DNA from: Idiomarina loihiensis
GTDB lineage: Bacteria > Pseudomonadota > Gammaproteobacteria > Enterobacterales > Alteromonadaceae
DNA length: 64,000 nt
Assembly: GCF_024584785.1 (NCBI RefSeq)
Contig: NZ_CP074112.1
Location: 124,001-188,000, forward strand
Reading direction: 5' to 3'
Shown here: positions 19,838-52,228 of the stretch, piece after piece
Numbering within the stretch: position 1 is the stretch's first letter
Layout of the letters: every line of letters begins with the position of its first letter
Notes under the pieces: model-generated
What the model saw: the letters and a program-made list of their open reading frames with translations, nothing else
What the model was told of the DNA's origin: nothing
Database searches by the model: none
Position numbers and translations under genes: made by a program

Positions 19838-19863
19838 CTAAGGGCATGGTGAGGATAGTTATT

Positions 19864-21132: not shown

Positions 21133-21187
21133 TTATTTCATAAAACTGACATACGGTAATGAAACTGTCATAAAGCTGACATAACAT
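21124..21187 (+). promoter_or_regulatory. PhoB-box array and promoter of the porin gene
   Basis: PhoB-type half-sites are dense. CGGTCAT (21124), ATTTCAT (21135) and CTGACAT (21146) lie in 11-bp phase. CGGTAAT (21154) and CTGTCAT (21165) form a second pair, and a further CTGACAT sits at 21176. From the CGGTAAT-GAAA-CTGTCAT pair, 10 bp lead to TAACAT at 21182-21187 as a -10. A separate AT-rich TATATA at 21211 is an alternative -10. Confidence 0.65.
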
Positions 21188-21253: not shown

Positions 21254-22210
21254 ATGGCAATCGGTGCTAAAGCAAACGTTATCTTTCCTTCTCTAGCATT
21301 AACTGCAATGCTAATTCATCCTCTTGCGCAAGCTCAGGATGAGCCTGTTACTTTTGATTTTTATGGAAAAATCAATGTATCCCTACAAAGCAACGATCTT
21401 GATGATGGCACTCCCAGTGATACTGAAATTATCTCTAATGCGTCCCGTTTTGGCATTAAAGGCGGCGCTCAGTTAGATGGCGACCTTGAGGTCATTTATC
21501 AATTAGAATGGGAAGTCGACGTTGCCGATTTAGGTGGTGATGACAATATTAAGGCGCGAAACCAGTTTATCGGGCTCAAAGGTAACTTTGGTGAGTTTAC
21601 TGTGGGGCGTCGCGATACGGCGTTGAAGTTGGTACAAAGTGGCTTTGATCCCTTTTCTAACTATGCCGCAGACATGAAACATATATTTGCAGGTAAAAAC
21701 CGCACTAAAAACACGTTAAGTTATTTCTCGCCTAAGTTTAATCAGTTTCAGGTAGCGGCAAGCTATGTGTTTGCTGAAGATGACTTCGTTGACGATGGCA
21801 TCTCGCTAAGCTTGGCTTATGGCGATAAAAAACTGAAACAAACCCAGTTTCATGCAGCCATTGCCGTAGACGATAGTGTTAATGGACGCGATATCGTGCG
21901 TGCCATGGGGATGACCAAAGTAGGCGATACTCAGCTTGGTCTGTTGTGGCAAGATCAAGAAAATGTCGATGGTACTGGTCAAGCCGATGGGTGGGTCGCG
22001 AATGTGATTCAGCCGTGGCAGAATTTCAGTTTTAAATTCCAATATCAAATGATGGATTTTGACGATGGTGAAAAATCAGCCATTGCCGCTGGCGCTGACT
22101 ATAAACTCGGCGACAACACCACAGTTTACGCTTGGTATACCGGCCGTGATCTCGATAATATCGATGCACAGCAACGATACCTGGCGATTGGTATCGAGCA
22201 CAAGTTTTAA
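21254..22210 (+). CDS. Outer-membrane porin, probably phosphate-starvation induced
   Basis: Beta-barrel general porin of 318 residues with a signal peptide (cleavage near 28, LAQAQ-DE). The alternating strands include FDFYGKINVSLQ at the first strand, the GLKGNFGEFTVGRRDT segment and a terminal phenylalanine (GIEHKF) required for barrel assembly. It belongs to the Gram-negative porin family. The PhoB-type promoter suggests a PhoE-like role in phosphate passage, which is inference; pore selectivity cannot be judged from sequence alone. Confidence 0.85.
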   Translation: MAIGAKANVIFPSLALTAMLIHPLAQAQDEPVTFDFYGKINVSLQSNDLDDGTPSDTEIISNASRFGIKGGAQLDGDLEVIYQLEWEVDVADLGGDDNIKARNQFIGLKGNFGEFTVGRRDTALKLVQSGFDPFSNYAADMKHIFAGKNRTKNTLSYFSPKFNQFQVAASYVFAEDDFVDDGISLSLAYGDKKLKQTQFHAAIAVDDSVNGRDIVRAMGMTKVGDTQLGLLWQDQENVDGTGQADGWVANVIQPWQNFSFKFQYQMMDFDDGEKSAIAAGADYKLGDNTTVYAWYTGRDLDNIDAQQRYLAIGIEHKF

Positions 22211-33701: not shown

Positions 33702-33740
33702 AGATAGAAAGACGCTTCGTTGTAAAATGATGGTCTATCA

Positions 33741-33773
33741 TAAAAAAAAGCCCCCGCAGATGCGAGGGCTTGT
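33741..33773 (-). terminator. Terminator of the first Oar-like receptor gene
   Basis: The stem pairs 33748-33758 with 33761-33771 (AAGCCC and CGCA arms with one C-A mismatch, 2-nt loop). The A-run at 33742-33749 gives a U-tract on the minus strand. It is nearly identical to the terminator of the second receptor gene at 37019-37049. Confidence 0.85.
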
Positions 33774-33795
33774 TTCAACTATAGCGTTATTAGGC

Positions 33796-36700
33796 TTAGA
33801 AATCGTATTTAAAGCCTAAACGGATGCTCCACAATGATGGTGCACCTGAACGACCTTGTACGCCGTCAATACGTGAGCTCAATGACTCAAATACATATTG
33901 GTTTTGGTCGTTAATTGATACGTTAGCTACGCCAATTGAACGAGGGAAGCTTGCTTCATACAACACGCCCCAATCATCGTTTAACAGGTTAGTTAAGTTA
34001 TCAACCACAAAGTACAGGCTTGATTTGTGACCATCGGCAAAACCAGGTAGGTCTTGTTCGAATTTGAAGTCAACTTTGTGCCACCAGCTGCTGTAGAACT
34101 CGTTACGAGGTGCAATACCACCAGCGTACTTGTCTAAGCCAGCTTCTTCGATAAAGGCAAAGAATTTGTCAGTATCAAAGCCAGCAGCAAAGATTGCATT
34201 CGGGTCAGTTAAACCAGTTGGTACGTATAACAATGCACGAGCAGAGCTAGTGATATCACCGAACACGTTACCGTTCATAGTGTAGCTGTACGGACGACCT
34301 TTGTTAGCGCTACCGAATAAGCTGAACTTAGTATCGTAACCATCTAACCACTCAGTGGTGTAGGTAGCACGGAAAGTAAAGCGGTGTGGAATTTCGTAGT
34401 TAGAAGTTGCCACGCCTGGGTTTTGTAAATCAGCAGCCGCTACGTTGGTGTAGTTTGAGTAAGCTACCGAGCTGGTCATTGGGTTAACGTCTTCAGCTTT
34501 GTTCCAAGCGTAAGCCAAGGTCCAGTCTAAACCAAAGTCATGGGATTTGCTTACCGCCAATGACAATGAGGTTTGCTTACCAGAGTCACCATCAACGTTG
34601 GTTAACAAGAAGGCATCAGAGCCTGAACCAGCATAGATTGGACGACCGTCTGGAGCTGTATCCACTTGCGTACGGCGTAAGTCTTTGATGATTGCAGCAT
34701 TGTCTTTTTCAGTGTGCAACAAGTCAGCCATGAAAACATAGCCGTTATCAAAGGCGTAGGTGGCACCAATGGCATATTTCCATTCTTTAGGTAATTCAAA
34801 GTTAGGATCTAATGCGTTAACCGGGCCAACACCAGCAGCGTTTGCTACTTCGTCATACATGGACTGTGGAATGTCGATTAATGGATTACCAGAGCCAGTG
34901 TGAGGGATATCAAACAGGCTGCCACCATTTAAGAACAGGTTTGATTCGTACAAGCTCACGCCGTTGTTTGAGTAGTTGTTAGACAACCAAACGTTCGGGT
35001 TACCGCCAGAATACAAACCAATACCACCACGTACTTCAAGCTCTGGGCTTACTACCCAGTTCACGCCTAAGCGCGGCTGTACTAAACCTTCACCGTCTAA
35101 GGTAGCGGTGTTGGCGTAGCCATAAGTGCTTTGGAAGTTAGCGTTCAGCGCTGGCTCATCACTGGTGGTGTACCAGTCATAACGTAAACCAGCAGTTAAG
35201 GTTAAATCTTGGTCGATAAAGTAGTATTCATCTTGTGCATACAAGGTGTTTACTGAGTACTTGAATTGACCAGCACCATCATTTGGATCGTTACTACCAG
35301 CGGCGTTTTCATAGATCACGCGGCTAGGAGTACCAGCTTCAAAGGCATCGATAGAGGCAAACCGGAACTCACCTTGTGCTTCTTGAATAAACAAGTTGTA
35401 CACATCGTAACTTTCGCGCTCATAACCGAAGGTGAAAGTATGATCTTCATACAAGTAAGTACCAGCAACTTTGAAGAAAGTTGTGTCGTAGTACAACTTG
35501 TTGGCATGACGAGAATCGTCAGCACCAAGATAAATGGTGTTGCCATTGTGGCTAATTTGAACTTCACCTACTTCAGTACCGCCAAGTGGGTCAACGCGAG
35601 CGTCTAACTCAGAGTAACCAGCACGAATTTCGGTAGAGAAGTTGTAGGTCCAGTCTGAGTACAACTGTGCTACATAAGAAGTGAATTTAGAACCGCGCTC
35701 ATAGTAGTGGTTAGAGAATTCTAGTTCGTTGTCATCACCGTCAGACTCAGCGATAGAGTAACCATCGTTGTAGTTGTAGGTAAAGGCCGCACGATGCTGG
35801 TCATTAATGTACCAGTCTAATTTCGCTAAGAACTTCTCGTCTTCTACTGGAATGCTAGCTGGGAAACCGCCTGGCTCGAAGCCGTAAACATCACGGGCGA
35901 TGTTAGCAATTCGGTCAAGATCTGCTTGCGTAACGCCTAGTACTGGCGTGGCTGCAGAGCCATCTTCTGGGCCGCGATCGAACGTATCAGCGCCTTCTAG
36001 TTTTTCATAAGCAATGAAGGCGAAAAGTTTATCATCAATTAACGCGCCACCACCGTTGAAACCGTAACGACGTTCGTTGAAAGCACCCACGTTAATCGAG
36101 TCACCTTCAAGCTTATCGCCTTGCAGGCTGTCGTTGGTGTAATCAAAGAAAACGCTACCAAATAGCTCGTTTTCACCTGATTTGGTTACGGCGTTGATGT
36201 TACACGCAGTAAAACCACCGTATTGCACGTTAAAAGGAGCTAACTCTACTGCTACCTGCTCAATAGCATCATAAGAGAAAGGCATCCGCTCGGTAGGGTA
36301 ACCGCTTGAATTCAAACCAAAGTTATCGTTCATGCGCACGCCGTCAACAGTCAAGCTGTTGAAACGCGGGTTAGCACCGGCGCACTGAATGTCACGTGCG
36401 TTGGTTTCGTTGATATAGATACGCGGGTCATTACGTACAATATCTTTGATATCACGGTTTACTGTAGGAGCGCTTTGCAAATCAGCTAGGCTGAAGGTTG
36501 CAGTTGGACCATTAGTACCAGAAGTCGTAGTGAGTTGCGAACCCGTTACAGCAATACGTTCTACGGACTGCTGCGGCACTGCCACGCTTAAGTTTTCGGT
36601 CTCGCCCAAGGTTAAGAAGACGTTCTCAATAACCTCGCTGTTACCCATCGCATCGGTCACAGTTAACGTGTATGGACCACCTACGGCAAGGCCGCGGGCA

Positions 36701-36915
36701 GAGAACAATCCATTGTCGTTAGCTGAAAGTGTACTAGTAGTACCGGTGCGTTCATCCTTTAACGTTACCGTTGCATTGGCGATAGCTTGTCCGGTTGCTT
36801 CGCTCGTTACCACACCACGAATACTTGATGTAGTTTCTTGCGCAATGGCCGCTGAGGAAATCCCGATAGCCAAGGCAACTGCGGCGGCTATACGGCTGGG
36901 TTTACTATTGAACAT
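33796..36915 (-). CDS. Oar-like TonB-dependent receptor 1
   Basis: Large outer-membrane receptor of 1039 residues. The order is a signal peptide (cleavage near 25, AIAQ-ET) and a carboxypeptidase-regulatory-like beta-sandwich (about 30-110, SIRGVVTSEATGQAIANATV). A plug domain (about 115-250, VTGSQLTTTSGTNG, FNSLTVDGVRMNDNFGL) and a long beta barrel ending in phenylalanine (RLGFKYDF) follow. Two cysteines in the plug (in DIQCAGAN and FTACNINAVTKSG) could form a disulfide. It is a paralogue of the next gene; each has its own Pho-type promoter and terminator. The ligand is unknown. Confidence 0.88.
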   Translation of the reverse strand: MFNSKPSRIAAAVALAIGISSAAIAQETTSSIRGVVTSEATGQAIANATVTLKDERTGTTSTLSANDNGLFSARGLAVGGPYTLTVTDAMGNSEVIENVFLTLGETENLSVAVPQQSVERIAVTGSQLTTTSGTNGPTATFSLADLQSAPTVNRDIKDIVRNDPRIYINETNARDIQCAGANPRFNSLTVDGVRMNDNFGLNSSGYPTERMPFSYDAIEQVAVELAPFNVQYGGFTACNINAVTKSGENELFGSVFFDYTNDSLQGDKLEGDSINVGAFNERRYGFNGGGALIDDKLFAFIAYEKLEGADTFDRGPEDGSAATPVLGVTQADLDRIANIARDVYGFEPGGFPASIPVEDEKFLAKLDWYINDQHRAAFTYNYNDGYSIAESDGDDNELEFSNHYYERGSKFTSYVAQLYSDWTYNFSTEIRAGYSELDARVDPLGGTEVGEVQISHNGNTIYLGADDSRHANKLYYDTTFFKVAGTYLYEDHTFTFGYERESYDVYNLFIQEAQGEFRFASIDAFEAGTPSRVIYENAAGSNDPNDGAGQFKYSVNTLYAQDEYYFIDQDLTLTAGLRYDWYTTSDEPALNANFQSTYGYANTATLDGEGLVQPRLGVNWVVSPELEVRGGIGLYSGGNPNVWLSNNYSNNGVSLYESNLFLNGGSLFDIPHTGSGNPLIDIPQSMYDEVANAAGVGPVNALDPNFELPKEWKYAIGATYAFDNGYVFMADLLHTEKDNAAIIKDLRRTQVDTAPDGRPIYAGSGSDAFLLTNVDGDSGKQTSLSLAVSKSHDFGLDWTLAYAWNKAEDVNPMTSSVAYSNYTNVAAADLQNPGVATSNYEIPHRFTFRATYTTEWLDGYDTKFSLFGSANKGRPYSYTMNGNVFGDITSSARALLYVPTGLTDPNAIFAAGFDTDKFFAFIEEAGLDKYAGGIAPRNEFYSSWWHKVDFKFEQDLPGFADGHKSSLYFVVDNLTNLLNDDWGVLYEASFPRSIGVANVSINDQNQYVFESLSSRIDGVQGRSGAPSLWSIRLGFKYDF

Positions 36916-36976
36916 GATGTTGTTTCCCTAGTTGTGTTAAACAAACAGTTTTATCAATAAAAAAGTTGGGTTGCGA

Positions 36977-37010
36977 AGTGTAGGTAATAACTATGACAAA
37001 TTGATGACTT
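36977..37010 (-). promoter_or_regulatory. PhoB-box promoter of Oar-like receptor 1
   Basis: Read on the minus strand, AAGTCAT-CAAT-TTGTCAT (37010 down to 36993) is followed by exactly 10 bp and then TACACT as the -10 (36982-36977). A ribosome site AGGGA precedes the ATG. The box lies just downstream of the terminator of receptor 2, so receptor 1 is an independent unit. Confidence 0.65.
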
Positions 37011-37016
37011 TGTCGT

Positions 37017-37050
37017 TTAAAAAAAGCCCCCGCATTGCTGCGAGGGCTTC
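37017..37050 (-). terminator. Terminator of the second Oar-like receptor gene
   Basis: The stem pairs 37024-37034 with 37039-37049, with a C-A mismatch at the same position as in the 33741 terminator and a TTGC loop. The A-run at 37017-37025 becomes the U-tract on the minus strand. Confidence 0.85.
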
Positions 37051-37062
37051 TGTATTGCTAAA

Positions 37063-40000
37063 TTAGAAACGATAGCGAACACCAATCTTGGCCTGCCATG
37101 ATGAGCGAGTAGGCTCATAACGGGTAGGCGATTGGTTCAATACGTCCCAGCCGTCGCCACTGTTATATGGCTGACCATAAACGTAACGGCCTTGATCGTC
37201 GATATTAACAGAGGCGATTTGACGCGCGTTATCACCGTAAGGTAAGACGTGCTTTTGGCCTGCATCTTTATCGAACAGAGCAATCAGGTTACGAACGTTG
37301 ATGTAGAACTCGCCCTTATGGCCGTCAACAAAACCTGGAATCTCTTGCGAGAATTTAAAGTCTAGGTTGGTGGTCCACGGAGCACGACGGGTGTTACGTG
37401 GAGCGTAACCGCCAGCATATTGGTCAAGACCAGTTTCTGCTAAGTAACCAGCAAAAGTGTCATAGTCTAAACCGCCGGTGTATACCACGTTCGGGTCATC
37501 GGCACCTGTTGGAATGTACGGCAAGTAACGAGCAGTACTTTCGAAGGTTGATTGGTCACCAAACTTGTTGAAGCGGAAAGTGTCTAGCACATAACCCCAT
37601 GGACGACCTGAGTAACGTTCCCAGAACAAGCCAAAGGTAGAGGTGTAGCCACTGAACAATTCAGTTTTGTAGGTGATATCGGCCATCAAACGGTGTTCAA
37701 CCATGTACGATGCAGTACCGGCTTCAACATTGTTCGGGTCGATAGCAACTGGGTAACGGAAGTTAGATACCGCAGTGCTTGAACTACCTGCTACTGCTTC
37801 TTGTACGTCTTGGTTGGTGTAGCTAGTACGTAAGCTTAAACCGTTGTCCCAAGCTTTACCAAGAGTTGCAGTAAAGATACGGCTGTTACCACCGTCACCA
37901 TTGGTCAACATCAGGTCATAACGCTCAACGCCGTTATCATCGCCTGGAGCCATTGGTTCGTGGTCATCTAATGGATCGTCAACAACATAAATTGGACGGC
38001 CGCCGTCAGCAGTAGTTACCGGGTTACCGTTTTCGTCAAGTAATTGACGACGCGCTAAATCTACCCACTGCACGTCATCTTTACGACGGCTGTAGATGTA
38101 TTCTGCACTCGCAAACCACTCTTCTCCCATGAATGGGATATCGAAGCTTTCGAAATCAACTGCTAAGCTGGCGCGCCAGTCGGTTGGTAACTCGAAGTTT
38201 GGATCGATAGCATTTACGTAACCGTCTTGAGTTAATGATTGTTGTACTAACTCAGGAACAGTCGTTGGGTCTACGTTGTTGCTGTAAACCGAAGATGGCA
38301 AACTGCTGGTATTGAACTGCGAGAATGCCATACCGCTGTTGGTATACGAGTTGGATACCCATACGTTTGGACGACCACCGCCGTAACGACCGAAGCCACC
38401 ACGTACTTTGATATCGTCAGCTGCTTGGTATTTGAAACCAAAGCGCGGCAAAATTAAGTCTTTACCGTCTAAGTTTTCAGTGTTGGCGAAGCCATAACGC
38501 TCAGCGAACAATGGGTTATAAGTTGGCTTATCTTTTGCGAAAATACGCTCGTAACGCACACCAAACGTTAACTCAAGATCCCAAGTAGGAGCCCAAGTGT
38601 CTTGCAGGTATAGCGCTTGATAACCTTGAGTAAAGTCAGCAGCAGCGTCGTTTACGTCACCGGTTAAGCTGCCCGCGTAATAGAAACGGTTAGCAGTTTT
38701 GTTACGGAAGTTATCTAGGCTCCAGAATTCCCATGAACCCAACGCGTTCTGTACGAACAAGTTGTAGATATCAGTAGAAGAGTACTGGTAACCAAATGAC
38801 AACGCGTGGTCGCCAATTAAGTATTCACCGTTTAATTGCAATTCTAGGGTGCTGTTTTCACCATAGTTAGCGTGGCGTGAGTAGTCAGGACCAAAAGTGA
38901 TTTCGTTACGGTCGCCATCTACTTGGACAGTAACAGAACCCATGGTGCGGCCGTTCATTGGCTCTTGCAAAGCTTCAACATCTTTGTACGACAATTTCAT
39001 GTCAGTTGAGAAGTTAGAGCTCCAGTTTGAGTACAGCTGCAACGCGTAAGCATTTAAGGTTTGCTCGTTGTTGTACCAGCTAGAAGATAAAGCTAATGAG
39101 CTATCGCTACCGTAATGGCCACGAATTGAGTTACCTTTGGTAGCCTGATAAGTAAAGGCTGCACGGTGCTCATTGCTGATGTTCCAGTCTAATTTCAACA
39201 ACAATTTTTCGTCGTCTTCTTCAGCTGGCATGTTCCAGTCGCCAAGTTGGCTATCGGTTAAGCCGTATACGTCACGAGCGATAGATAAAACTTCTTCTAA
39301 AGCTTCTTGAGATACATTGGCAATGTTAGATGCATTTGAGCCGATAGGACCACGATACGGGCTTTCTGATTCGCTCGATTTTTCGTAGTTAGCGTAGAAG
39401 AATAAGGTGTCTTCGATGATTGGACCGCCGATACCGATACCGTAGGTTTTCTCATCATAATCTACGTTTGGTACGCCAGAGCCTGGCTCATAAATAGATT
39501 CGCTAGGGTTACCAGCTAAAGAATCGCTAGTGTACTGAACGAATACGGAACCTTTTAATTCGTTGGTACCAGATTTGGTTACCGCGTTAACTTTAGCACC
39601 AGTAAAGTTGCTTTCTTTTGCGCTAAACGGCATCACATCAACGTTAATTTGTGCAATAGCGTCGATTGAAATAGGTGAACCTTGGGTTGGGTAACCGTTG
39701 TTGTTCAAACCGAAATCATCGTTCTGGCCGATACCGTCGATAGTGATTGAGTTGTATTTTGGGTTGTTACCAGCAACAACTAATTGGTCGCCGTCGCCAA
39801 GCTGAGTGGCTAATGGGTTCAAACGAACGATTTCTTTTAAGTCACGGCCGTAAGTAGGCAGTGATTCAATTTGTTCTTGACCAAACGAGCTTGAAGAACC
39901 GTTGTTCATTGAAGCATAGTTGATGGCGCGACCAGTAACGCTGATACGCTCAGCAGCTTGAGTCTCAAGTTGCGCATTCAAACGGTAAGTTTCGCCTAAT

Positions 40001-40308
40001 TTCAGGTAAACTTCTTCGTAGGTGGCGTCACGGTATACGTCTGAGTCTAAGGTTACACGGTAAGGACCGCCAACACGCAGACCACTGGCAATAAATGAAC
40101 CTGATTCGTCAGTCGTTACTTCTAAACGACTGCCTGAAGGCATGTGTTCGATTACTACTTTGGTGTTGGCTGCGCCAGCACCTTGTGGACCGACAATAGA
40201 ACCACGCATTGCTGCAGAGGTATCTTGTGCAATAGCAGTTGCTGAGACTAAGCCCAATGCAACGGCGATAGCACTGGCGGTGCGTGTTAATCGCATAGAT
40301 GTACTCAT
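37063..40308 (-). CDS. Oar-like TonB-dependent receptor 2
   Basis: Outer-membrane receptor of 1081 residues built like its neighbour. It has a signal peptide (cleavage near 28, AIAQ-DT) and a carboxypeptidase-regulatory-like domain (about 30-112). The plug (about 118-255) shows VTGRAINYASMNNGSSSSF and YNSITIDGIGQNDDFGL, and the barrel ends KIGVRYRF. It lacks the plug cysteines of receptor 1 (KYNSIT instead of an Ala-Gly-Cys context, and FTGAKVNAVTKSG), so the two may bind different ligands. It is divergent from the phosphatase-family lipoprotein across a 213-bp gap. The substrate is unknown. Confidence 0.88.
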   Translation of the reverse strand: MSTSMRLTRTASAIAVALGLVSATAIAQDTSAAMRGSIVGPQGAGAANTKVVIEHMPSGSRLEVTTDESGSFIASGLRVGGPYRVTLDSDVYRDATYEEVYLKLGETYRLNAQLETQAAERISVTGRAINYASMNNGSSSSFGQEQIESLPTYGRDLKEIVRLNPLATQLGDGDQLVVAGNNPKYNSITIDGIGQNDDFGLNNNGYPTQGSPISIDAIAQINVDVMPFSAKESNFTGAKVNAVTKSGTNELKGSVFVQYTSDSLAGNPSESIYEPGSGVPNVDYDEKTYGIGIGGPIIEDTLFFYANYEKSSESESPYRGPIGSNASNIANVSQEALEEVLSIARDVYGLTDSQLGDWNMPAEEDDEKLLLKLDWNISNEHRAAFTYQATKGNSIRGHYGSDSSLALSSSWYNNEQTLNAYALQLYSNWSSNFSTDMKLSYKDVEALQEPMNGRTMGSVTVQVDGDRNEITFGPDYSRHANYGENSTLELQLNGEYLIGDHALSFGYQYSSTDIYNLFVQNALGSWEFWSLDNFRNKTANRFYYAGSLTGDVNDAAADFTQGYQALYLQDTWAPTWDLELTFGVRYERIFAKDKPTYNPLFAERYGFANTENLDGKDLILPRFGFKYQAADDIKVRGGFGRYGGGRPNVWVSNSYTNSGMAFSQFNTSSLPSSVYSNNVDPTTVPELVQQSLTQDGYVNAIDPNFELPTDWRASLAVDFESFDIPFMGEEWFASAEYIYSRRKDDVQWVDLARRQLLDENGNPVTTADGGRPIYVVDDPLDDHEPMAPGDDNGVERYDLMLTNGDGGNSRIFTATLGKAWDNGLSLRTSYTNQDVQEAVAGSSSTAVSNFRYPVAIDPNNVEAGTASYMVEHRLMADITYKTELFSGYTSTFGLFWERYSGRPWGYVLDTFRFNKFGDQSTFESTARYLPYIPTGADDPNVVYTGGLDYDTFAGYLAETGLDQYAGGYAPRNTRRAPWTTNLDFKFSQEIPGFVDGHKGEFYINVRNLIALFDKDAGQKHVLPYGDNARQIASVNIDDQGRYVYGQPYNSGDGWDVLNQSPTRYEPTRSSWQAKIGVRYRF

Positions 40309-40394
40309 CTTTATTTCCTGGGTTGGTTGCTTTTAATAAAAATCGAGTTAAGGCATAACCGCTTGTTTTGACGCCTTAATGACATTCGTGCGCA

Positions 40395-40428
40395 TTTATA
40401 GCACGCAGATATGTCAAAAATGTGACAA
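40395..40428 (-). promoter_or_regulatory. PhoB-box promoter of Oar-like receptor 2
   Basis: On the minus strand TTGTCAC-ATTT-TTGACAT (40428 down to 40411) is followed by exactly 10 bp and a strong -10, TATAAA (40400-40395). The core is nearly symmetric and could also be read rightward toward the lipoprotein gene, but on that side the -10 position (AATTTT) is poor. Confidence 0.75.
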
Positions 40429-41735: not shown

Positions 41736-41788
41736 ATGTCATCTATTTGCAGCATTTTCATAAAAGTGTCATAAAGTATCTGAATAAT
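41736..41788 (+). promoter_or_regulatory. PhoB-box promoter of phoBR
   Basis: TTTTCAT-AAAA-GTGTCAT (41755-41772) is followed by 10 bp and AATAAT (41783-41788). Two further half-sites, ATGTCAT (41736) and TTGCAGC (41747), lie upstream in 11-bp phase with each other. This fits autoregulation of phoB, which is established in E. coli. Confidence 0.75.
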
Positions 41789-41819: not shown

Positions 41820-42506
41820 ATGTCTAGAAAGATACTGATTGTTGAAGATGAAGCTCCGATTCGCGAGATGCTGAGCTTCGTCATGGAGCAGCACGGCTAT
41901 CAAGCTGTGGAGGCGGGTGACTACCAAACAGCCCTAGAAAAAGTGGTTGAGCCCTTCCCTGATATGATTTTGCTGGATTGGATGATTCCTGGTGGGTCTG
42001 GTATTCAGTTAGCGAAAAAGCTAAAAGGCGATGATTTTACCCGCTCGATCCCGATCATCATGCTAACGGCACGAGGCGAAGAAGAAGATAAAGTACGTGG
42101 GTTAGAGGTGGGTGCCGATGACTACATGACTAAACCTTTCTCGCCAAAAGAGTTAATGGCCCGCATGCGGGCGGTGTTCCGCCGTGTCGCGCCAACTGCG
42201 TTAGATGAGCCGCTCGAGGTAGAACATTTGAAGTTAGACCCAGTATCGCATCGCGTGAGTGCTTTTAATGACCGTTTAGAAATGGGCCCCACCGAGTTTA
42301 AATTACTGCACTTTTTTATGACTCATCCAGAACGGGTTTATAGCCGTGAGCAACTGCTAGACCATGTGTGGGGCACCAACGTTTATGTCGAAGACAGAAC
42401 CGTTGATGTGCATATACGACGTTTGCGCAAAGCGTTAGAATTGCATGGTCATGATCGCCTCATTCAAACCGTACGGGGCGTCGGTTATCGGTTTTCAAAA
42501 AACTAA
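41820..42506 (+). CDS. phoB: Phosphate regulon response regulator PhoB
   Basis: OmpR-family transcription factor activated by PhoR under phosphate starvation; it binds Pho boxes as a dimer. The receiver domain has Asp10, Glu11, the phospho-acceptor Asp53 (LLDWMIPG) and Lys105 (TKPFSP). The C-terminal winged helix ends VQT-like VRGVGYRFS. The 228 residues match E. coli PhoB (229). It lies 28 bp upstream of phoR. Confidence 0.96.
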
Positions 42507-42534: not shown

Positions 42535-43836
42535 ATGGATAGACGCTACTCGGTTTTCTTTATTCTACGGGGCTTACTGTGGTATGTGCTGCCGTTAGCG
42601 GTCGTTGGTGCGTTGTTTGATGTGTTTTGGCCATTGATGGCCATCGCTTTGTTTATGCTGGTGGCTTGGCATTATTATTATCAATACAAATTGGTGGATT
42701 GGCTGTGGCATCGACGCACCTTGTTACCGCCAAATGCTCCCGGCAGCTGGAGCTATATCTACGATGGCATTTATCGAACCCAGCGTCGTAGTCAGCAACG
42801 CCGCCGCGCCCTCGCTAGGTTACTGCGCCGTTTTCGTGAAGCCTCAGAAGCCATACCCGATGCTGCTATAGTGTTTCGTAAAGATGGTAGCCTCATTTGG
42901 TGTAACAAGTTAGCGCAATTCTATTTCGGCCTGAAATGGCCGGCCGATACCGGTATCCGTTTACCTAACTTAATTCGTCATCCTGAGTTTGTTGCTTATT
43001 TGCAAGCAGGCAAGTTCAACGAAGATATGCACCTTGCCTCGCCTGTTCGTGAAGAAGTTGAGTTAGAAGTTCGCATCATGCCGTACAGTGATGATCAGTA
43101 CTTACTGATGGCGCGCGATGTAACTCAAATTAAGCGCTTAGAACAGATGCGTAAAGAATTTGTCGCAAACGTATCGCACGAACTAAAAACGCCACTGACC
43201 GTATTGCAAGGTTATCTCGAGATGCTTGAGCAACCAGAGGCAATGCCGCCAGCCATGCTTAGTAAAGCTGTACGAGACATGGACGCGCAAAGTACGCGCA
43301 TGCGCAACCTAGTTGACCAATTGTTATCGATGTCGCGCTTAGATGTTCATCGGACGGATATTTTTGAGCGCAAAGTGGATGTTCCAGCCATTTTTCGGCA
43401 GCTAAAACTCGATGCCGAACGTCTTAATCAAGACAAGCAGCACAGCATCGAATTTGATATCGCAGAGGTGAGCATGTTTGGCATTGATGATGAGATGCGC
43501 AGCGCCTTTGCCAATCTAGTCACCAATGCTATTCATTACACCCCACCGGGCGGGCACATCAAAGTGCGTTGGCAGCCAGTGGCTAACAGCATGGAGTTTA
43601 GTGTTACTGATAATGGTCCTGGGATTGGTGGTGAACATATCCCGCGTTTAACCGAGCGCTTTTATCGAGTAGACAAAGATCGTAATAGCAAAAAGGGTGG
43701 TTCAGGGCTAGGTTTAGCCATAGTGCAGCAAGTGCTTGAGCATCATCACAGTAAGCTTCAAATAGATTCGCAGCTAGGGCGAGGGTCTAAGTTCTGGTTT
43801 CGGATTTCAGAAGAGCTTGTCATAAAATCATCATAA
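42535..43836 (+). CDS. phoR: Phosphate regulon sensor kinase PhoR
   Basis: Inner-membrane kinase and phosphatase of PhoB. Two close hydrophobic segments span about 8-46 with almost no periplasmic loop, as in PhoR, which senses through Pst and PhoU. A charged linker and PAS domain (about 105-200) follow. The H box is FVANVSHELKTPLTVL with His215. The ATPase domain shows NLVTNAIHYTPPGG, DNGPGIG and GGSGLGLAIV. Length is 433. Confidence 0.95.
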   Translation: MDRRYSVFFILRGLLWYVLPLAVVGALFDVFWPLMAIALFMLVAWHYYYQYKLVDWLWHRRTLLPPNAPGSWSYIYDGIYRTQRRSQQRRRALARLLRRFREASEAIPDAAIVFRKDGSLIWCNKLAQFYFGLKWPADTGIRLPNLIRHPEFVAYLQAGKFNEDMHLASPVREEVELEVRIMPYSDDQYLLMARDVTQIKRLEQMRKEFVANVSHELKTPLTVLQGYLEMLEQPEAMPPAMLSKAVRDMDAQSTRMRNLVDQLLSMSRLDVHRTDIFERKVDVPAIFRQLKLDAERLNQDKQHSIEFDIAEVSMFGIDDEMRSAFANLVTNAIHYTPPGGHIKVRWQPVANSMEFSVTDNGPGIGGEHIPRLTERFYRVDKDRNSKKGGSGLGLAIVQQVLEHHHSKLQIDSQLGRGSKFWFRISEELVIKSS

Positions 43837-43881
43837 TTTCGTCATACTTGTCATTAAACTGTCACATTGACGACTTAAACT
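43817..43881 (+). promoter_or_regulatory. PhoB-box array and promoter of pstS
   Basis: Five half-sites: TTGTCAT (43817), TCATCAT (43828) and TCGTCAT (43839) in 11-bp phase, then TTGTCAT (43848) and CTGTCAC (43859), also 11 bp apart. From the last one, 10 bp lead to TAAACT (43876-43881). The array begins inside the last codons of phoR. Confidence 0.8.
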
Positions 43882-43955: not shown

Positions 43956-44927
43956 ATGAAGCTTAAATCTGCAATGATTGCCCTCAGCCTTAGCGCTGTA
44001 GTGAGTGCTGGAGCTTACGCACAAAAAGCCACAGATAATCTGCCTGAATATGAAAAAGTAAGTGGCCTATCAGGCAACTTATCATCGGTAGGGTCAGATA
44101 CGTTGGCGAACATGATGACCTTTTGGTCGGAAGAGTTTAAGCGCATGTACCCTAATGTAAACATGCAAATTCAAGCGGCCGGATCTTCTACTGCACCACC
44201 AGCGCTGACTGAAGGTACTTCAAACTTTGGCCCTATGAGCCGTGCTATGAAGGCGAAAGAAATCGAGGCCTTTGAAAAACGTCATGGCTACAAGCCAACC
44301 CCAGTGCGCGTTGCTATCGATGCGCTAGCGGTGTTTGCGCACAAAGATAACCCGATTGAAGGTTTAACTATTGCTCAAGTTGATGCGATTTTCTCAAGCA
44401 CTCGTTTATGTGGTGCCAACGAAGAAGTTCGCCGTTGGGGCGACCTAGGTTTAACTGGCAGCTGGGTGAACCGTGATTTGCAAATTTACGGTCGTAACTC
44501 AGTATCGGGAACCTACGGCTACTTCAAAGAGGTTGCCTTATGTGATGGCGACTTCCGCAATAACGTTAATGAGCAACCAGGTTCTGCGTCGGTAGTACAA
44601 TCGGTATCAACATCGCTTAATGCCATTGGCTACTCAGGTATTGGTTACATGACCTCTGGTGTTAAAACGGTGCCTTTAGCTGTTGAAGAAGGCAGCGAAT
44701 ATGTGGATGCAACCACTGAAAATGCATTAGCCGGTAAATATCCGTTAGCACGCTTCTTGTATGTTTATGTCAACAAGCATCCAAACAAGCCGCTTGACCC
44801 AGCAACCGCCGAATTCTTAAAAATGGTTCTATCTAAGCAAGGCCAAGAAATCGTTGATAAAGACGGGTACATTCCAGTACCACGTGTGGTGGTAGAGCAA
44901 GAACTTGAGCGTTTAGGCTTAAATTAA
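43956..44927 (+). CDS. pstS: Phosphate ABC transporter substrate-binding protein
   Basis: Periplasmic phosphate-binding protein of 323 residues with a signal peptide (cleavage near 22, AYAQ). Binding-site segments are [10 protein letters not shown] near 46-55, [23 protein letters not shown] near 71-93, and [12 protein letters not shown] near 174-185. It is the PstS form common in marine gammaproteobacteria and differs from E. coli PstS. It has its own terminator, so it is a separate transcript from pstCAB, which starts about 1.8 kb downstream. Confidence 0.92.
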
Positions 44928-46721: not shown

Positions 46722-48965
46722 ATGGCGGCATCACCACGCGGACAGTTGGGAGCCAGTAATGTGCGTTTATTTAAAGACCGAGCAGCACGCTGGGGGGTAA
46801 CCTTTGGTGGCGGCTTGGTGTTAATCGCACTTCTCCTAATTTTCTTTTATCTCTTGTATGTAGTCGAGCCCATTTTCCGTGGGGTTGATATAGAACAACA
46901 GCAGTCTTTTGCAATTCCTGGCCAAGGCGAAACCGTGGCAATGGGCATGGAAGAACAATCTGAAATAGGCTATCGCTTTGATAACCTGGGCGGCTTGAGC
47001 TTCTTTGCGTTAAAGCAAAAACCAGGTACTGATTGGCAGCCAGGGCAAGTGTTGTTGCAGCAGCAGGTGGCGGAGCAGCCCACCGCCTTTGCGGCAACAC
47101 AGCCACAGAATAAGCGTTACGTCTACGCTGTTGCCGATGGCAAGGCTCGCGTCATCGAGCCGAAATTTCGTACCCAATTCAATAATGGCCGTCGCTTAAC
47201 CACTCCGGTCGTTGATTTTGCCAATGACGGTGAGTTGTATCAGGTAGATCCGCAAGGGCGGCAGCTACAGCAAATTGCCTATGAGTACGACGGCGATTCA
47301 TCGCTGTTTGCAGCGGTCACCTCAGATAATGTAGTGGTCGTTAATTACTTACAAGCCACCAAGAGCTTCTTGACGGGGGCAGTAGAGTTAAAAGCAAAAG
47401 TGAGTGAATTACCAACCACAGGTAACGTAGATAACCTGGTGGTAACGCCCGATTTGCGCCAAGTATTTGTGCGCCAAGGCAACCGTTTTGCGGTTTATGA
47501 TGTGTCGCGCACTGGTAGCGTGAGTGAGCGTCAAGTGCTCAATGTTGATAAACGGCGTTACGGTGCTATCACCAGCATGCAGTTACTAGCTGGTGCTAGT
47601 TCTGTGTTATTTGGCCATGACCAGGGGTTAATTACCCAGTGGTTTGAAGTGGCTGGAGAAAATGGACGTCAGTATCAATACATTCGCGAATTTAAGGCCG
47701 GCAATAGTGCTATTACCGGTTTGGTTGCTGAGTATTATCGTCGTACTTTTTATGCGCTCAATAGCGAGGGACAAGTTGGCGTCTTCCATACCACCTCGCA
47801 AGCGGACCTTTATTTAGCAAAACCAGAACAGTTGCATGCTGAACAGCTGGTGATAGATCCTCGAGCAAACACCTTGCTGATGCAAAGTGGCAACCAACTG
47901 CACAGCTTTAAACTCGATAACGAGCACCCTGAGGTGAGTTGGAGCGGAGTCTGGCAAGAGGTGTGGTACGAAGGTTACCCAGAGCCGCAGTATGTGTGGC
48001 AATCCACCTCAGGCTCAGATGACTTTGAGCCTAAGTTTAGCTTGGTTCCTATTTCTTTCGGTACCATCAAAGCCGCTGCCTATGCGATGTTATTTGCCGT
48101 ACCTATTGGTTTAGCAGCCGCCGTCTACACCGCCTATTTTATGTCGCCTGGGGTGCGCAAAGTAGTGAAGCCCACGGTTGAAATCATGGAAGCGTTACCC
48201 ACGGTTATCTTGGGCTTCTTAGCAGGGTTATGGCTAGCGCCGCTCATTGAGACTTATTTGCCGGGTATTGTGGCGACCCTGATTTTAATTCCTACATCGA
48301 TTATTTTAATGGCGTTAATCAGCTCCAACTTACCTAAAGCATGGCGCAGCAAGTTTACCGATGGCAGTGCTGCCTTAGTGCTGATTCCGGTGGTGCTCTT
48401 AGCTGGTTGGTTATCATTTGAATTATCGCCATGGATAGAGTCCACCTTGTTTGGTGGTAACGTGCGCCAATACATCACCAACGAGTTAGGCATCACGTTT
48501 GATCAGCGCAACTCGCTTGTTGTGGGTATCGCCATGGGCTTTGCTGTGATTCCAACGATTTTCTCGATTGCCGAAGATGCGGTGTTCAGTGTTCCTAAGC
48601 ACCTGTCTAATGGTTCGTTAGCCCTAGGTGCAACCACCTGGCAAACCCTCACCAAAGTCGTGTTGTTAACTGCCAGCCCAGGTATTTTCTCGGCGGTCAT
48701 GATGGGCTTAGGACGCGCAGTAGGTGAAACCATGATTGTGTTAATGGCAACCGGTAACACGCCCATCATGGATTGGAACATCTTTGAAGGAATGCGCACC
48801 TTGTCGGCCAACATTGCGGTAGAAATGCCAGAGTCTGAAGTAGGTAGTTCGCACTATCGCATCTTATTCTTGGCGGCATTTGTGTTATTCATTTTCACCT
48901 TCGCGTTTAACACGGTGGCAGAGCTCGTGCGCCAGCGGTTACGCGATAAATACAGTTCAATGTAA
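46722..48965 (+). CDS. pstC: Phosphate ABC transporter permease PstC, long form
   Basis: Inner-membrane permease subunit of the Pst phosphate importer. Helix 1 is at about 24-48. It is followed by an extracytoplasmic region of about 390 residues (to about 437) and then a permease core of about 310 residues. That core contains the EAA-type loop (SVPKHLSNGSLALGATTWQT). E. coli PstC has about 319 residues, so the 747-residue protein carries a large periplasmic insert. That insert has many short beta-like stretches (VVDFANDGELYQVDP, NVVVVNYL, FAVYDVSRTG), suggesting a propeller-like fold. Long PstC forms occur in marine gammaproteobacteria; the insert's role is unknown. Confidence 0.92.
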   Translation: MAASPRGQLGASNVRLFKDRAARWGVTFGGGLVLIALLLIFFYLLYVVEPIFRGVDIEQQQSFAIPGQGETVAMGMEEQSEIGYRFDNLGGLSFFALKQKPGTDWQPGQVLLQQQVAEQPTAFAATQPQNKRYVYAVADGKARVIEPKFRTQFNNGRRLTTPVVDFANDGELYQVDPQGRQLQQIAYEYDGDSSLFAAVTSDNVVVVNYLQATKSFLTGAVELKAKVSELPTTGNVDNLVVTPDLRQVFVRQGNRFAVYDVSRTGSVSERQVLNVDKRRYGAITSMQLLAGASSVLFGHDQGLITQWFEVAGENGRQYQYIREFKAGNSAITGLVAEYYRRTFYALNSEGQVGVFHTTSQADLYLAKPEQLHAEQLVIDPRANTLLMQSGNQLHSFKLDNEHPEVSWSGVWQEVWYEGYPEPQYVWQSTSGSDDFEPKFSLVPISFGTIKAAAYAMLFAVPIGLAAAVYTAYFMSPGVRKVVKPTVEIMEALPTVILGFLAGLWLAPLIETYLPGIVATLILIPTSIILMALISSNLPKAWRSKFTDGSAALVLIPVVLLAGWLSFELSPWIESTLFGGNVRQYITNELGITFDQRNSLVVGIAMGFAVIPTIFSIAEDAVFSVPKHLSNGSLALGATTWQTLTKVVLLTASPGIFSAVMMGLGRAVGETMIVLMATGNTPIMDWNIFEGMRTLSANIAVEMPESEVGSSHYRILFLAAFVLFIFTFAFNTVAELVRQRLRDKYSSM

Positions 48966-48979
48966 GTATGAGGATTTCC

Positions 48980-50635
48980 ATGAATACTTGGTTTAAATCA
49001 GGAAAACCCTACATTTGGCTCACCGCTGGTGCAGTAAGTGTGAGCTTAATTGCGGTCTTAGGTTTGCTTGCATTGATTGCGTGGCGTGGGCTTAGCTTCT
49101 TTTGGCCAGCGGCCATTCATGAAGTAGAAGTGCAAGCCAATGACGGCTCGAAGCGGGTCATCATTGGTGAAATCTACGACCGTGAAGAGGTGAGTCTGGA
49201 GCGTTTGCAAGAATCAGGCGTGGCGCTAGATGGCTATCAGGAAGATACGTTAGAGCGATTGCTGTTTAAAGTAGGTAATCGTGAGTTTGTCTCCCTTGAT
49301 TTTATGTGGGTGATGGAACCTCAAATTATTCGTAACGAGACGCCTAGCGATTTAGCCGTGATTGAGCGTTCAAAAGATGGCAACTTCTATGGTTATGTGG
49401 TTGATGTTATTGAAAATGGCCAATCAGTAGCCACAGCTGAATCCATTCGTACGGTATTGTTCGAGCGAATTGAACGAGCGGTTGCGTTAAATGAGCAAGC
49501 TGCTGATTTACAGCAAGGCGAGATTGGTGCCATCAACTATGAGTTGAACCGATTACGCTTAGAACGTCGAGCGTTAGAACTCGAAGGCCAGTTAACCGCA
49601 GCTGAAGAACAGCGCATAGCAGCAGCCGAAGAAGCCCAGCGAGCGGCGTATCAGGAACTGGAGCAGCAACTCTTTGCTTATCGTGATCAAGCAAGCCGCG
49701 ATAGCGTAGTGATGCGCGACATGCGCGGTGAAGAAGTGACCATCCCTATGTATCGGGTGCTGGATGCGACTTTCCCCAACGATATGGGATGGTTTGCAAA
49801 AGTAGCGCACTTCTTTACTCAGATCGGTAAATTTATTACTGAAGATCCACGTGAAGCCAATACCGAAGGCGGCGTCTTTCCAGCTATTTTTGGTACCGTA
49901 TTTATGGTGCTATTAATGTCGGTGATTGTGACCCCGTTTGGCGTTATCGCAGCGGTTTATTTGCACGAGTACGCGGGCAAAAATGCTATTACGCGTTTGA
50001 TTCGTATCGCCGTGATCAACTTGGCGGGTGTGCCTTCGATTGTGTATGGCGTATTCGGCTTAGGCTTCTTTGTATACATGGTGGGTGGTTCACTAGACCA
50101 AATCTTTTATCCAGAGGCCTTGCCTAGCCCCACTTTTGGTACTCCAGGGGTGATGTGGTCTGCTATTACCTTGGCTATTTTGACGCTACCTGTGGTCATC
50201 GTTTCTACCGAAGAAGGTTTATCACGTATTCCTAGTACCTTGCGTGAGGGTAGTTTGGCCCTTGGAGCCACCAAGGCAGAGACCTTGTGGCGCATCATTT
50301 TACCGATGGCATCGCCAGCGATCATGACCGGCTTAATTTTGGCGGTAGCGCGAGCGGCCGGTGAAGTCGCGCCATTGATGTTAGTAGGGGTAGTAAAATC
50401 AGCGCCAATGTTGCCCGTTGATGGAAACTTCCCGTATTTTCATTTAGACAGAAAATTTATGCACTTAGGCTTCCACATTTATGATGTTGGCTTCCAAAGT
50501 CCAAACGTAGAAGCGGCGCGACCGCTGGTTTATGCAACCTCATTTTTATTGGTGACTGTGATTGTCGGTCTCAATTTGACCGCTATCAGTGTGCGTAACC
50601 ACTTACGTGAAAAATATCGTTCGCTTGAGCACTAA
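48980..50635 (+). CDS. pstA: Phosphate ABC transporter permease PstA, long form
   Basis: Second permease subunit of Pst. From ATG 48980 it has 551 residues against about 296 in E. coli. Helix 1 (about 15-40) is followed by a periplasmic insert of about 255 residues. The insert contains a glutamate- and glutamine-rich coiled coil (NRLRLERRALELEGQL, AAAEEAQRAAYQELEQQL). The permease core follows, with the EAA loop (RIPSTLREGSLALGATKAET). The start is chosen because GAGG lies 6 bp upstream; the ATG at 48968 overlaps that site. Confidence 0.91.
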   Translation: MNTWFKSGKPYIWLTAGAVSVSLIAVLGLLALIAWRGLSFFWPAAIHEVEVQANDGSKRVIIGEIYDREEVSLERLQESGVALDGYQEDTLERLLFKVGNREFVSLDFMWVMEPQIIRNETPSDLAVIERSKDGNFYGYVVDVIENGQSVATAESIRTVLFERIERAVALNEQAADLQQGEIGAINYELNRLRLERRALELEGQLTAAEEQRIAAAEEAQRAAYQELEQQLFAYRDQASRDSVVMRDMRGEEVTIPMYRVLDATFPNDMGWFAKVAHFFTQIGKFITEDPREANTEGGVFPAIFGTVFMVLLMSVIVTPFGVIAAVYLHEYAGKNAITRLIRIAVINLAGVPSIVYGVFGLGFFVYMVGGSLDQIFYPEALPSPTFGTPGVMWSAITLAILTLPVVIVSTEEGLSRIPSTLREGSLALGATKAETLWRIILPMASPAIMTGLILAVARAAGEVAPLMLVGVVKSAPMLPVDGNFPYFHLDRKFMHLGFHIYDVGFQSPNVEAARPLVYATSFLLVTVIVGLNLTAISVRNHLREKYRSLEH

Positions 50636-50679
50636 TTAGTGTTTGTAGCCATAAAATTTAAGCGCAGAAGGTTGATATT

Positions 50680-51498
50680 ATGATTTCGGTAACTCCGACC
50701 AATACCCAAGCAGGCTCGTTAGATTTAGCTAATTTGAGTGCTGCAGATACTGCTTTAGAAATTCAGAATTTAAATTTGCACTACGGCGAAGCTCAGGCTT
50801 TGTATGATATTTCAATGAAGATCCCGAAAAACCGTGTGACTGCTTTTATCGGGCCGTCAGGTTGCGGTAAGTCAACGCTGTTGCGTTGTATCAATCGGAT
50901 GAACGATCTCGTTGAAATTTGTAAAGTGAGTGGTGAAATTCGCCTCCACGAGCAAAACATCTACGCTAAAAATGTCGATGTTGCAGCTTTGCGCCGCCAA
51001 GTTGGCATGGTGTTCCAGCGCCCGAATCCGTTTCCTAAATCTATTTATGAAAACGTGGTTTACGGGATGCGCCTACAAGGGGTGAACGATCGTCGCCGTT
51101 TAGATGAAGTGGTAGAGCGTTCGCTAAAAGGAGCGGCGCTCTGGGATGAAGTGAAGGATCGTTTGAACGAATCAGCGTTCGGCTTATCAGGCGGTCAGCA
51201 ACAACGTTTAGTGATTGCTCGCGCGATTGCCATAGAGCCAGAAGTGTTGTTGTTGGACGAGCCAACCTCAGCCCTAGATCCTATTTCTACGCTCACGATT
51301 GAAGAGCTTATTACCGAGCTTAAAGAGCAGTTTACGGTGGTGATTGTTACTCACAATATGCAACAAGCGGCACGGGTGTCTGATCAAACTGCCTTTATGT
51401 ACATGGGTAAGTTAATTGAATATGCTGATACCAACACCTTGTTCACGACCCCACAGAAAAAACAAACGGAAGATTACATCACTGGACGTTACGGTTAA
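50680..51498 (+). CDS. pstB: Phosphate ABC transporter ATP-binding protein PstB
   Basis: Cytoplasmic ATPase of the Pst importer. Walker A is GPSGCGKST at 58-66, the signature is LSGGQQQR, Walker B is [12 protein letters not shown], and the switch histidine follows in VIVTHNMQQ. The 272 residues include an N-terminal extension of about 15 residues. It lies between pstA and phoU on the same strand. Confidence 0.97.
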
Positions 51499-51511
51499 TT
51501 AGGAGCAGCCC

Positions 51512-52228
51512 ATGGATAAAGTAAATATGAGCCGGCATATTTCCGGCAAATTTAATGAAGAATTAGAAGCTGTTCGTAACCAAGTATTGAGTATGGGTGG
51601 GCTGGTTGAGCAGCAACTGCGCGACTCATTGATTGCCATAGAAAAATCAGATCATGATATGGCGCAGCAAATTTTGCAGCGCGACTATAAAATCAACGCA
51701 CTCGAAGTGCAGATTGATGAAGCCTGCGTACAAATTATTGCAAAACGCCAGCCAGCAGCGAGTGATTTAAGATTAATCATCGCAATTTTTAAAACCATTT
51801 CAGATCTTGAGCGAATTGGTGACGAAGCAGAGCGCATTGCGCGTGTGGCACTAGAAAGCTTTAACAATGACCAGCAGCAATTTTTGGTGAGTTTGGAAAA
51901 TCTTGGCCAGCAAGTATTGTCCATGTTGCATGGGGTGCTTGATGCCTTTGCGCGGATGGATCTAGACTCGGCCTACGAGGTTCACCAAATGGATGCCCAA
52001 GCCGACCGTCAATACGAGGCTCTTACGCGGCAGTTGATGACCTATATGATGGAAGATCCGCGCGGTATTCCTAAGGTCATGAATGTCCTTTGGTCAGCCC
52101 GTTCACTCGAGCGTATCGGTGATCGCTGTCAGAATATTGCGGAGTACATTATTTTCTTCGTGAAAGGAAAAGACGTGCGCCATGTGTCACCCGAGTCGAT
52201 GGAACAAACGGTTAAAGGAACACGTTAA
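51512..52228 (+). CDS. phoU: Phosphate transport regulator PhoU
   Basis: Helical protein that links Pst to PhoR and keeps the regulon off when phosphate is plentiful. It has two three-helix PhoU repeats in 238 residues. The metal-binding E/D-xxx-D patterns (DLERIGDEAERIA near 98-110 and SLERIGDRCQNIAEY near 200-214) are both present. It closes the pstC-pstA-pstB-phoU operon and is followed by a terminator. Confidence 0.95.
   Translation: MDKVNMSRHISGKFNEELEAVRNQVLSMGGLVEQQLRDSLIAIEKSDHDMAQQILQRDYKINALEVQIDEACVQIIAKRQPAASDLRLIIAIFKTISDLERIGDEAERIARVALESFNNDQQQFLVSLENLGQQVLSMLHGVLDAFARMDLDSAYEVHQMDAQADRQYEALTRQLMTYMMEDPRGIPKVMNVLWSARSLERIGDRCQNIAEYIIFFVKGKDVRHVSPESMEQTVKGTR

Follow-up and report, generated by a model that had tools for sequence, protein, structure and literature searches.

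The window analysed here, a stretch of 64,000 nucleotides from the closed 2.90-Mb genome of Idiomarina loihiensis, holds beside phoBR a tandem pair of genes for Oar-type TonB-dependent receptors and, divergent from the first of them, a gene for an EEP-fold (Exo_endo_phos) lipoprotein; the names oarA, oarB and EEP are coined for this analysis. We propose, at a probability of about 0.6, that both receptors are under PhoB control and use TonB to import ligands derived from nucleic acids, either oligonucleotides or nucleotides, that serve as a phosphorus source. Gene anatomy, Pho-box-like promoters, conserved synteny, the conserved catalytic-type residues of EEP and the neighbour genes of relatives are direct observations. 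Both receptor genes, of 1039 and 1081 residues, are present beside phoBR as the initial annotation had described them, and its proposal of a phosphorus-bearing ligand is supported by the Pho-type promoters and by the neighbour genes.

The gene neighbourhoods of related receptors point to nucleic acids. Outside Idiomarinaceae, 56 of 67 Oar loci carry within 6 kb a homologue of udk, nupC, deoA, cdd, xanthine phosphoribosyltransferase, 5'-nucleotidase or S1/P1 nuclease, and the count rises to 63 of 67 if EEP is also included. EEP loci without a receptor, which serve as a control because the query genes were taken from receptor neighbourhoods, have such a nucleic-acid gene within 6 kb in 2 of 59 cases. 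One representative each of udk, nupC, deoA, cdd, xanthine phosphoribosyltransferase, UshA and e(P4) 5'-nucleotidase scored above its NCBIfam cut-off and two S1/P1 nucleases were confirmed by PF02265 (those for S1/P1 and UshA were drawn from L220 and L228), the remaining neighbour labels being BLAST matches to representatives from such loci. NupC (38/67) and udk (36/67) are the commonest nucleoside neighbours. A uridine kinase and NupC lie near Oar in Rheinheimera, Arsukibacterium, Alishewanella, Paraglaciecola, Aliiglaciecola, Lacimicrobium and Marinibactrum, often together with a 2OG-Fe(II) oxygenase and xanthine phosphoribosyltransferase; Colwellia, Psychrosphaera and Thalassotalea have cytidine deaminase, thymidine phosphorylase, alkaline phosphatase and a RutR-like regulator (below its NCBIfam cut-off, in 8 loci); Kineobactrum has a NadN-like nucleotidase just under its cut-off; and further genomes have an e(P4) 5'-nucleotidase, UshA with an S1/P1 nuclease, or an S1/P1 nuclease without these.

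Loci chosen in other ways were counted as well, the first set being the cleaner test. Among 20 receptor loci picked for having no EEP neighbour, and with queries fixed beforehand, 13 have udk, nupC or a 5'-nucleotidase and 16 have one of these or S1/P1 nuclease (L214, L217, L221 and L232 have none); ten EEP-less receptor loci stand outside this count (G052, G035, G081, G306, G354, G406 twice, G415, G381:C57 and G119:C37). Loci outside Idiomarinaceae from the order-wide receptor search, which took account of no more than two receptor candidates in any genome, carry a nucleic-acid gene in 28 of 36 cases, or in 29 of 38 if L115 (a duplicate of L167) and L117 (grouped as Idiomarinaceae-like, its family uncertain, with neither EEP nor a nucleoside gene) are restored. 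For EEP-adjacent genomes the other neighbours were checked only in hand-picked loci. In a receptor tree of 62 rows (quick method, no bootstrap, midpoint root), oarB groups with five udk/nupC-linked receptors and the Kineobactrum receptor in a set of 16 rows (SH-aLRT 99), and oarA falls in a 5-row set with one udk/nupC-linked receptor (SH-aLRT 91, not starred) nested in a 34-row set (100), which would place both among nucleoside-linked Oars. Since the two fall in different sets, the tandem pair looks old.

Two other associations were seen at these loci. The 2OG-Fe(II) oxygenase homologue (L135:2532-3485 and relatives), possibly a nucleoside or base hydroxylase, accompanies udk-nupC and Oar in 32 of the 67 loci, and a conserved gene pair, one member weakly phosphonate-binding-like and the other without a match, accompanies the receptors in 13 (L114, L158, L181, L183, L213, L215, L216, L218-L220, L224, L225 and L227).

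The lipoprotein fits a role in the same route. EEP matches PF03372 at 106.1 bits (cut-off 24.5), and residues N39, E91, H237, D294, N296, D388 and H389, which we take to be catalytic, are invariant in 64 sequences; for the label "phosphatase-family lipoprotein" given to it initially, EEP-fold phosphodiesterase or nuclease-type lipoprotein is the better term. Gene context favours a nuclease. An S1/P1 nuclease homologue stands beside Oar at 12 loci and EEP at 41, with both at none, an exclusion with a chance probability of 1.6e-6 over 67 loci, many of them found through EEP; the 36 receptor-search loci include 10 with EEP, 12 with S1/P1 and none with both (p 0.008, descent ignored). The two enzymes thus behave as if they fill one slot. 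A Colwellia protein (L179) also joins EEP to alkaline phosphatase, and a 1720-residue protein (L095:9496-14658) combines a purple-acid-phosphatase N-terminal domain with metallophosphatase, PKD and EEP domains. Among 22 congeneric EEPs the lipobox reads Cys-Asp in 19 and Cys-Glu in 2, and one has none. In E. coli, lipoproteins with Asp at this position are kept at the inner membrane. The same sorting rule, that Asp after Cys leads to inner-membrane retention, is given in section 12 of PMC2996285. The Cys-Asp lipobox therefore suggests a periplasmic enzyme acting after import, probably placed on the inner membrane and facing the periplasm.

Control by PhoB is predicted from the promoters. Sites were scored as matches out of 12 to TGTCATN5TGTCAT, which we take to be the PhoB-box consensus. 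An 11/12 site lies 77 bp upstream of oarB and a 10/12 site 102 bp upstream of oarA, in the spacer common to the divergent EEP gene, with another two-mismatch site nearer oarA, in agreement with the earlier claim that each receptor has its own PhoB-type promoter. As positive controls in the window phoB and pstS score 11/12 and pstC 10/12, whereas the comparison genes tadA, purL, phoR, lrp and asnA reach only 8-9/12. The window contains 21 sites with at most two mismatches, compared with 4.9 (sd 2.0) in 100 shuffles, no shuffle reaching 21. The whole genome has 15 sites that miss the consensus at one position or none, compared with 8 for the reversed control pattern; three of them lie at oarB, phoB and pstS, and a fourth is 5' of a porin gene in the window. 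Two-mismatch sites are barely above control (184 versus 160), and weak sites therefore count only by position. The two perfect boxes of the genome lie about 50 bp 5' of ppk, the polyphosphate kinase gene (L207:5667-7811), and about 50 bp 5' of an alkaline phosphatase gene. By the usual mark of the Pho regulon, PhoB boxes in promoters, the receptors would belong to it at the level of sequence, with pstS, phoB, ppk and alkaline phosphatase as controls; the co-regulation with Pst that had been suggested is thus a prediction from Pho-box-like promoters. Hairpins with a T run stand 3' of oarA and 3' of oarB (z -5.3 and -5.0), for which reason the two genes look like separate transcription units; a consensus terminator scan gave no excess (11 versus 10.6 in shuffles) and listed a hairpin after oarB only.

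The arrangement is conserved in the genus. All 23 congeneric genomes searched have a P0002 homologue; in 22 the side of EEP-phoB-phoR-pstS that faces tadA/purL bears one or two Oar genes, the contig of the 23rd being too short to show EEP. By best BLAST match, 13 of the 22 have both receptor types, 2 the oarA type only and 7 the oarB type only. The gene order of the window recurs in the named Pseudidiomarina loci L127-L131, L133 and L134, and in L132, filed as Idiomarina sp. Across the genus, Pho sites of at least 10/12 precede oarB in 13/20 cases, oarA in 10/17, EEP in 13/22, phoB in 20/22 and pstS in 21/22, and precede the control genes purL, tadA and phoR in 0/21, 0/23 and 0/22. The placement of the receptors next to pho genes therefore holds within the genus; outside Idiomarinaceae they are not adjacent to phoBR, and in the Idiomarina-type loci L136, L147, L151 and L175 the tandem pair and EEP are retained with the pho genes gone. 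PhoB-box-like sites are also enriched upstream of receptors away from phoBR: sites of at least 10/12 precede 9/18 Oar genes off phoBR versus 26/475 other genes, 5/34 Oar genes versus 12/830 others in the named loci outside Idiomarinaceae (p 3e-4; for at least 11, 1/34, p 0.11), and 9/24 Oar genes in loci without EEP.

Receptor and enzyme also travel together. Across 394 genomes of the order, 107 carry an EEP homologue, 64 an Oar homologue and 43 the two together (odds ratio 8.5, p 1.5e-13, kinship ignored), and in 33 of the 43 the two lie at most 10 kb apart, most commonly with a gap of 120-560 bp, divergently or on the same strand. At L045 a kinase/regulator pair adjoins Oar and EEP, the kinase having a CHASE8-type sensor by Pfam; we considered and rejected it as PhoBR, blastp identity being only 24-31%. 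EEP homologues 50-55% identical to that of the window also occur in Bacteroidota (Dyadobacter, Flavobacterium, [Flexibacter]), in loci with no Oar match (L139, L141, L143, L145, L146, L148-L150, L152, L154, L156, L157, L159, L160, L164 and L170), which suggests transfer between phyla.

The receptors themselves are 37% identical end to end. The carboxypeptidase-regulatory-like N-domain noted initially is confirmed in each by PF13620 (CarboxypepD_reg; 53.7 and 51.7 bits, cut-off 32.3), and both match the barrel family PF25183 (OMP_b-brl_4); the plug (PF07715) is above cut-off in oarB and just under it in oarA (21.7 versus 23.9). The two are the best of 5 PF13620 matches in the whole genome and the only proteins above the PF25183 cut-off. 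Ahead of the plug is an ERIxVTG-like motif, which we regard as resembling a TonB box, with E120 invariant and I122 and V124 nearly invariant in 44 sequences. The predicted model of oarA (pLDDT 85, pTM 0.83) has as its top PDB matches in Foldseek FusA (4zgv, E 3.6e-29), which we take to be a ferredoxin receptor, and YddB (6ofr), and is by predicted fold a TonB receptor; this likeness would fit a large ligand and proves nothing. A PDB sequence search with Oar and EEP gave no credible match. A role in signal transduction was set aside, the PF13620 extension being described as Oar-like and not of the transducer kind (PMC1790865) and the window having no sigma/anti-sigma gene adjoining the receptors.

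Together, these observations support a model whose ligand, transport direction, EEP substrate, EEP location and induction we infer from gene context. Under phosphate limitation PhoB would induce both oar genes together with the EEP gene and pst; the receptors would bind DNA or RNA fragments at the cell surface, with TonB powering their move into the periplasm; the EEP lipoprotein, probably held at the inner membrane, would cut phosphodiester bonds there; phosphatases, such as the Pho-boxed alkaline phosphatase encoded elsewhere in the genome, would free inorganic phosphate for PstSCAB; and nucleosides would enter through a NupC-type transporter. The parts for this route are in the host genome, though scattered: it has nupC, six EEP-fold genes, four TonB genes, one S1/P1 nuclease away from Oar, and an alkaline phosphatase (PF00245, the family also represented in the Colwellia Oar clusters) at L233:3354-4751(-), its perfect Pho box at L233:4803-4819. 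Of the three ligand classes named initially, organophosphate, nucleic acid fragment or polyphosphate, nucleic-acid fragments are best supported, by the gene neighbourhoods, and nothing seen here points to polyphosphate; the last was set aside, since despite the perfect Pho box 5' of ppk no ppk or ppx was among the neighbours scanned, in which no search was aimed at these genes. More tentatively, marine Gammaproteobacteria may have a widespread system in which Oar, by energised uptake across the outer membrane, imports oligonucleotides (DNA or RNA) to the periplasm and EEP or S1/P1 nuclease digests them, for food and not transformation, and which in Pseudidiomarina has been wired to PhoB.

Several observations weigh against this proposal. 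Eleven of the 67 outside loci have no nucleic-acid neighbour at all. Nor are the counts those of independent events, since the loci share ancestry and the search that led to many of them started from EEP. Closer to home, the receptors have no homologue of the nucleic-acid neighbour genes close by, whether in the window, in 23 genus loci or in 13 Idiomarinaceae-like loci, and the nupC of the host genome, with a uridine-kinase-family gene, is about 450 kb away. As to Pho sites outside the genus, none of those at Oar in the loci without EEP reaches 11, the signal upstream of EEP is weak at best (1/11 and 3/33), and phoA of the Colwellia clusters (0/8), udk (1/21) and nupC (1/23) have few. The net charges of the two receptors, -58 and -70 against a median of -67.5 in 44 homologues, are for the whole protein and not the barrel lumen; such strong acidity is mildly unexpected for a simple polyanion receptor unless the lumen differs or cations bridge. 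Finally, the EEP model (pLDDT 93.9) finds among its best 50 PDB rows, presumably all EEP-type enzymes, modest TM-scores of 0.38-0.47 by query length, matching 4ruw, sphingomyelinases (7cne, 2uyr), TDP2, CNOT6L and ExoIII; the predicted fold alone does not separate nucleases from sphingomyelinases.

That last point bears on the alternative to which we give most weight, though still an unlikely one, in which the imported ligand is a different phosphodiester, such as phospholipid head groups, glycerophosphodiesters or lipid phosphates, and EEP is a phospholipase C or sphingomyelinase-type enzyme. The EEP model is equally near the sphingomyelinases and the nucleases, and Pho control is compatible with any organophosphate; against this, varying sets of nucleoside and nucleotide genes turn up repeatedly beside Oar, and it is an S1/P1 nuclease that occupies the place of EEP. 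The prominence of NupC and udk among the neighbours, with the RutR-like regulator in 8 loci, would suit receptors that import nucleosides or bases for carbon, nitrogen or salvage after dephosphorylation at the surface, Pho control in Pseudidiomarina then being a local recruitment. We rank this reading next and consider it improbable, because Pho-box-like sites also occur at Oar genes off phoBR, genes for nucleases, phosphatases and nucleotidases lie in the same loci, the Cys-Asp lipobox in 19/22 congeneric EEPs suggests a periplasmic place, and nucleosides are small enough to cross porins such as Tsx.

Export instead of import is a very unlikely reading, in which the receptors would carry a protein, perhaps EEP itself, out to the cell surface or the medium. 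In its favour, Myxococcus Oar combines PF13620 and plug in the same way and is described as needed for PopC secretion (PMC6434023), and Oar and EEP are paired here; against it, Oar often occurs with no EEP (26/67 outside loci), as does EEP with no Oar (59 loci). We give least credence to coincidental synteny with an unrelated ligand; the 11 of 67 outside loci without nucleic-acid genes, and the genus loci likewise, would be expected under it, and it is countered by the recurrence of several gene sets of one theme across several bacterial families in varied orientations. Import of nucleic-acid-derived ligands remains the reading we prefer.

Table 1. Features of the receptor, pho and pst region, in window coordinates.
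Feature	Position	Strand	Remarks
oarB, Oar-type receptor paralogous to oarA, 1039 aa	33796..36915	-	
oarA, Oar-type TonB-dependent receptor, 1081 aa	37063..40308	-	signal peptide, PF13620 N-domain, TonB-box-like ERISVTG, plug, large barrel
EEP-fold (Exo_endo_phos) lipoprotein, 402 aa	40522..41730	+	lipobox LTGC then Asp; catalytic-type residues conserved
Terminator-like hairpin 3' of oarB	33740..33780	-	z -4.99
PhoB-box-like site 5' of oarB	36993..37009	-	11/12 matches
Terminator-like hairpin, oarA/oarB gap	37014..37058	-	with T run, z -5.28
Two PhoB-box-like sites, oarA/EEP divergent spacer	40368-40384 and 40411-40427 (within 40368..40427)	-	
PhoB-box-like site 5' of phoB	41756..41772	+	
phoB	41820..42506	+	TIGR02154 363.8 bits, cut-off 296.2
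phoR	42535..43836	+	TIGR02966 426.6 bits, cut-off 334.2
PhoB-box-like repeats 5' of pstS	43818..43865	+	
pstS	43956..44927	+	TIGR02136 281 bits, cut-off 206.6
Rest of Pst locus	46722..52228	+	
pstC	46722-48965	+	
pstA, permease family	48968-50635	+	
Presumed pstB	50680-51498	+	called from position alone
phoU	51512-52228	+	

Other features of the genome deserve mention. An lrp-type gene and asnA lie between pstS and pstC..phoU. A TonB gene at 19229-19837(+), followed by a TPR protein gene at 19846-21132(+), lies about 14 kb from the receptors and is a possible energiser for them. Just upstream of a general porin gene (PF13609) at 21254-22210(+) are four adjoining Pho-box-like sites at 21125-21182, and the product is probably a phosphate-starvation porin. 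About 2 kb upstream of the L233 alkaline phosphatase, on the same strand, is a gene for a 607-residue EEP-domain protein. An open reading frame of 534 residues without a Pfam match (L211:2083-3687) has a Pho-box-like site, TGTCACAAATCTGTCAC, about 65 bp upstream and is a candidate Pho-regulon member.

If the proposal is correct, a TonB-dependent receptor for nucleic acids would extend the substrates of this transporter superfamily to a new class, would give a function to one branch of the Oar group and a marker gene for DNA-foraging bacteria, and would fill the outer-membrane step missing from known uses of DNA as a nutrient. The protein is of a known kind, with probably a new kind of cargo: the portion of a review of TonB-dependent transporters available to us gives no nucleic-acid ligand (PMC11658791), and among the matches listed from the open-access literature no Oar or other TonB receptor is assigned to nucleic acids.

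The nearest relative by domain plan is the Oar of Myxococcus xanthus, described as a TonB-dependent exporter of PopC (PMC6434023), which shares the PF13620 N-terminal extension and the plug with a TonB-box-like motif in a barrel; the likeness is one of plan and not of direct sequence comparison, and the system here differs in its phosphate and nucleic-acid context and in the import proposed for it. Phosphate-induced TonB-dependent import of organic phosphorus has been proposed in Flavobacterium, for Pi-inducible transporters and PusCD adjoining phosphodiesterase and phosphomonoesterase genes (PMC8115612); PusCD is a SusCD two-part system of Bacteroidota, whereas ours is an Oar-type receptor, and no SusD match was among the neighbour proteins scanned, in which no search was aimed at SusD. 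Caulobacter has PhoB-controlled TonB receptors and phosphate-mobilising enzymes (PMC11208175), and its phosphate-starvation lipoprotein ElpS (CC0170), reported to have no functional domain beyond the lipobox, adjoins the TonB-dependent receptor CC0171 (PMC2996285), again a lipoprotein gene beside a receptor gene, ElpS and EEP being likened by description only. Substrates of Shewanella TonB-dependent transporters have been read, as here, from co-encoded inner-membrane transporters and enzymes; those assigned from operon context belong to sugar pathways, with no nucleic-acid transporter in the part of that study available (PMC2996990). Shewanella and other marine bacteria are known to use extracellular DNA (PMC8289736; ExeM, PMC6085458), through nucleases, nucleotidases and nucleoside catabolism much like the genes that surround Oar; "TonB" occurs 0 times in the main text of PMC8289736, and the outer-membrane step is the gap into which the receptors described here would fit.

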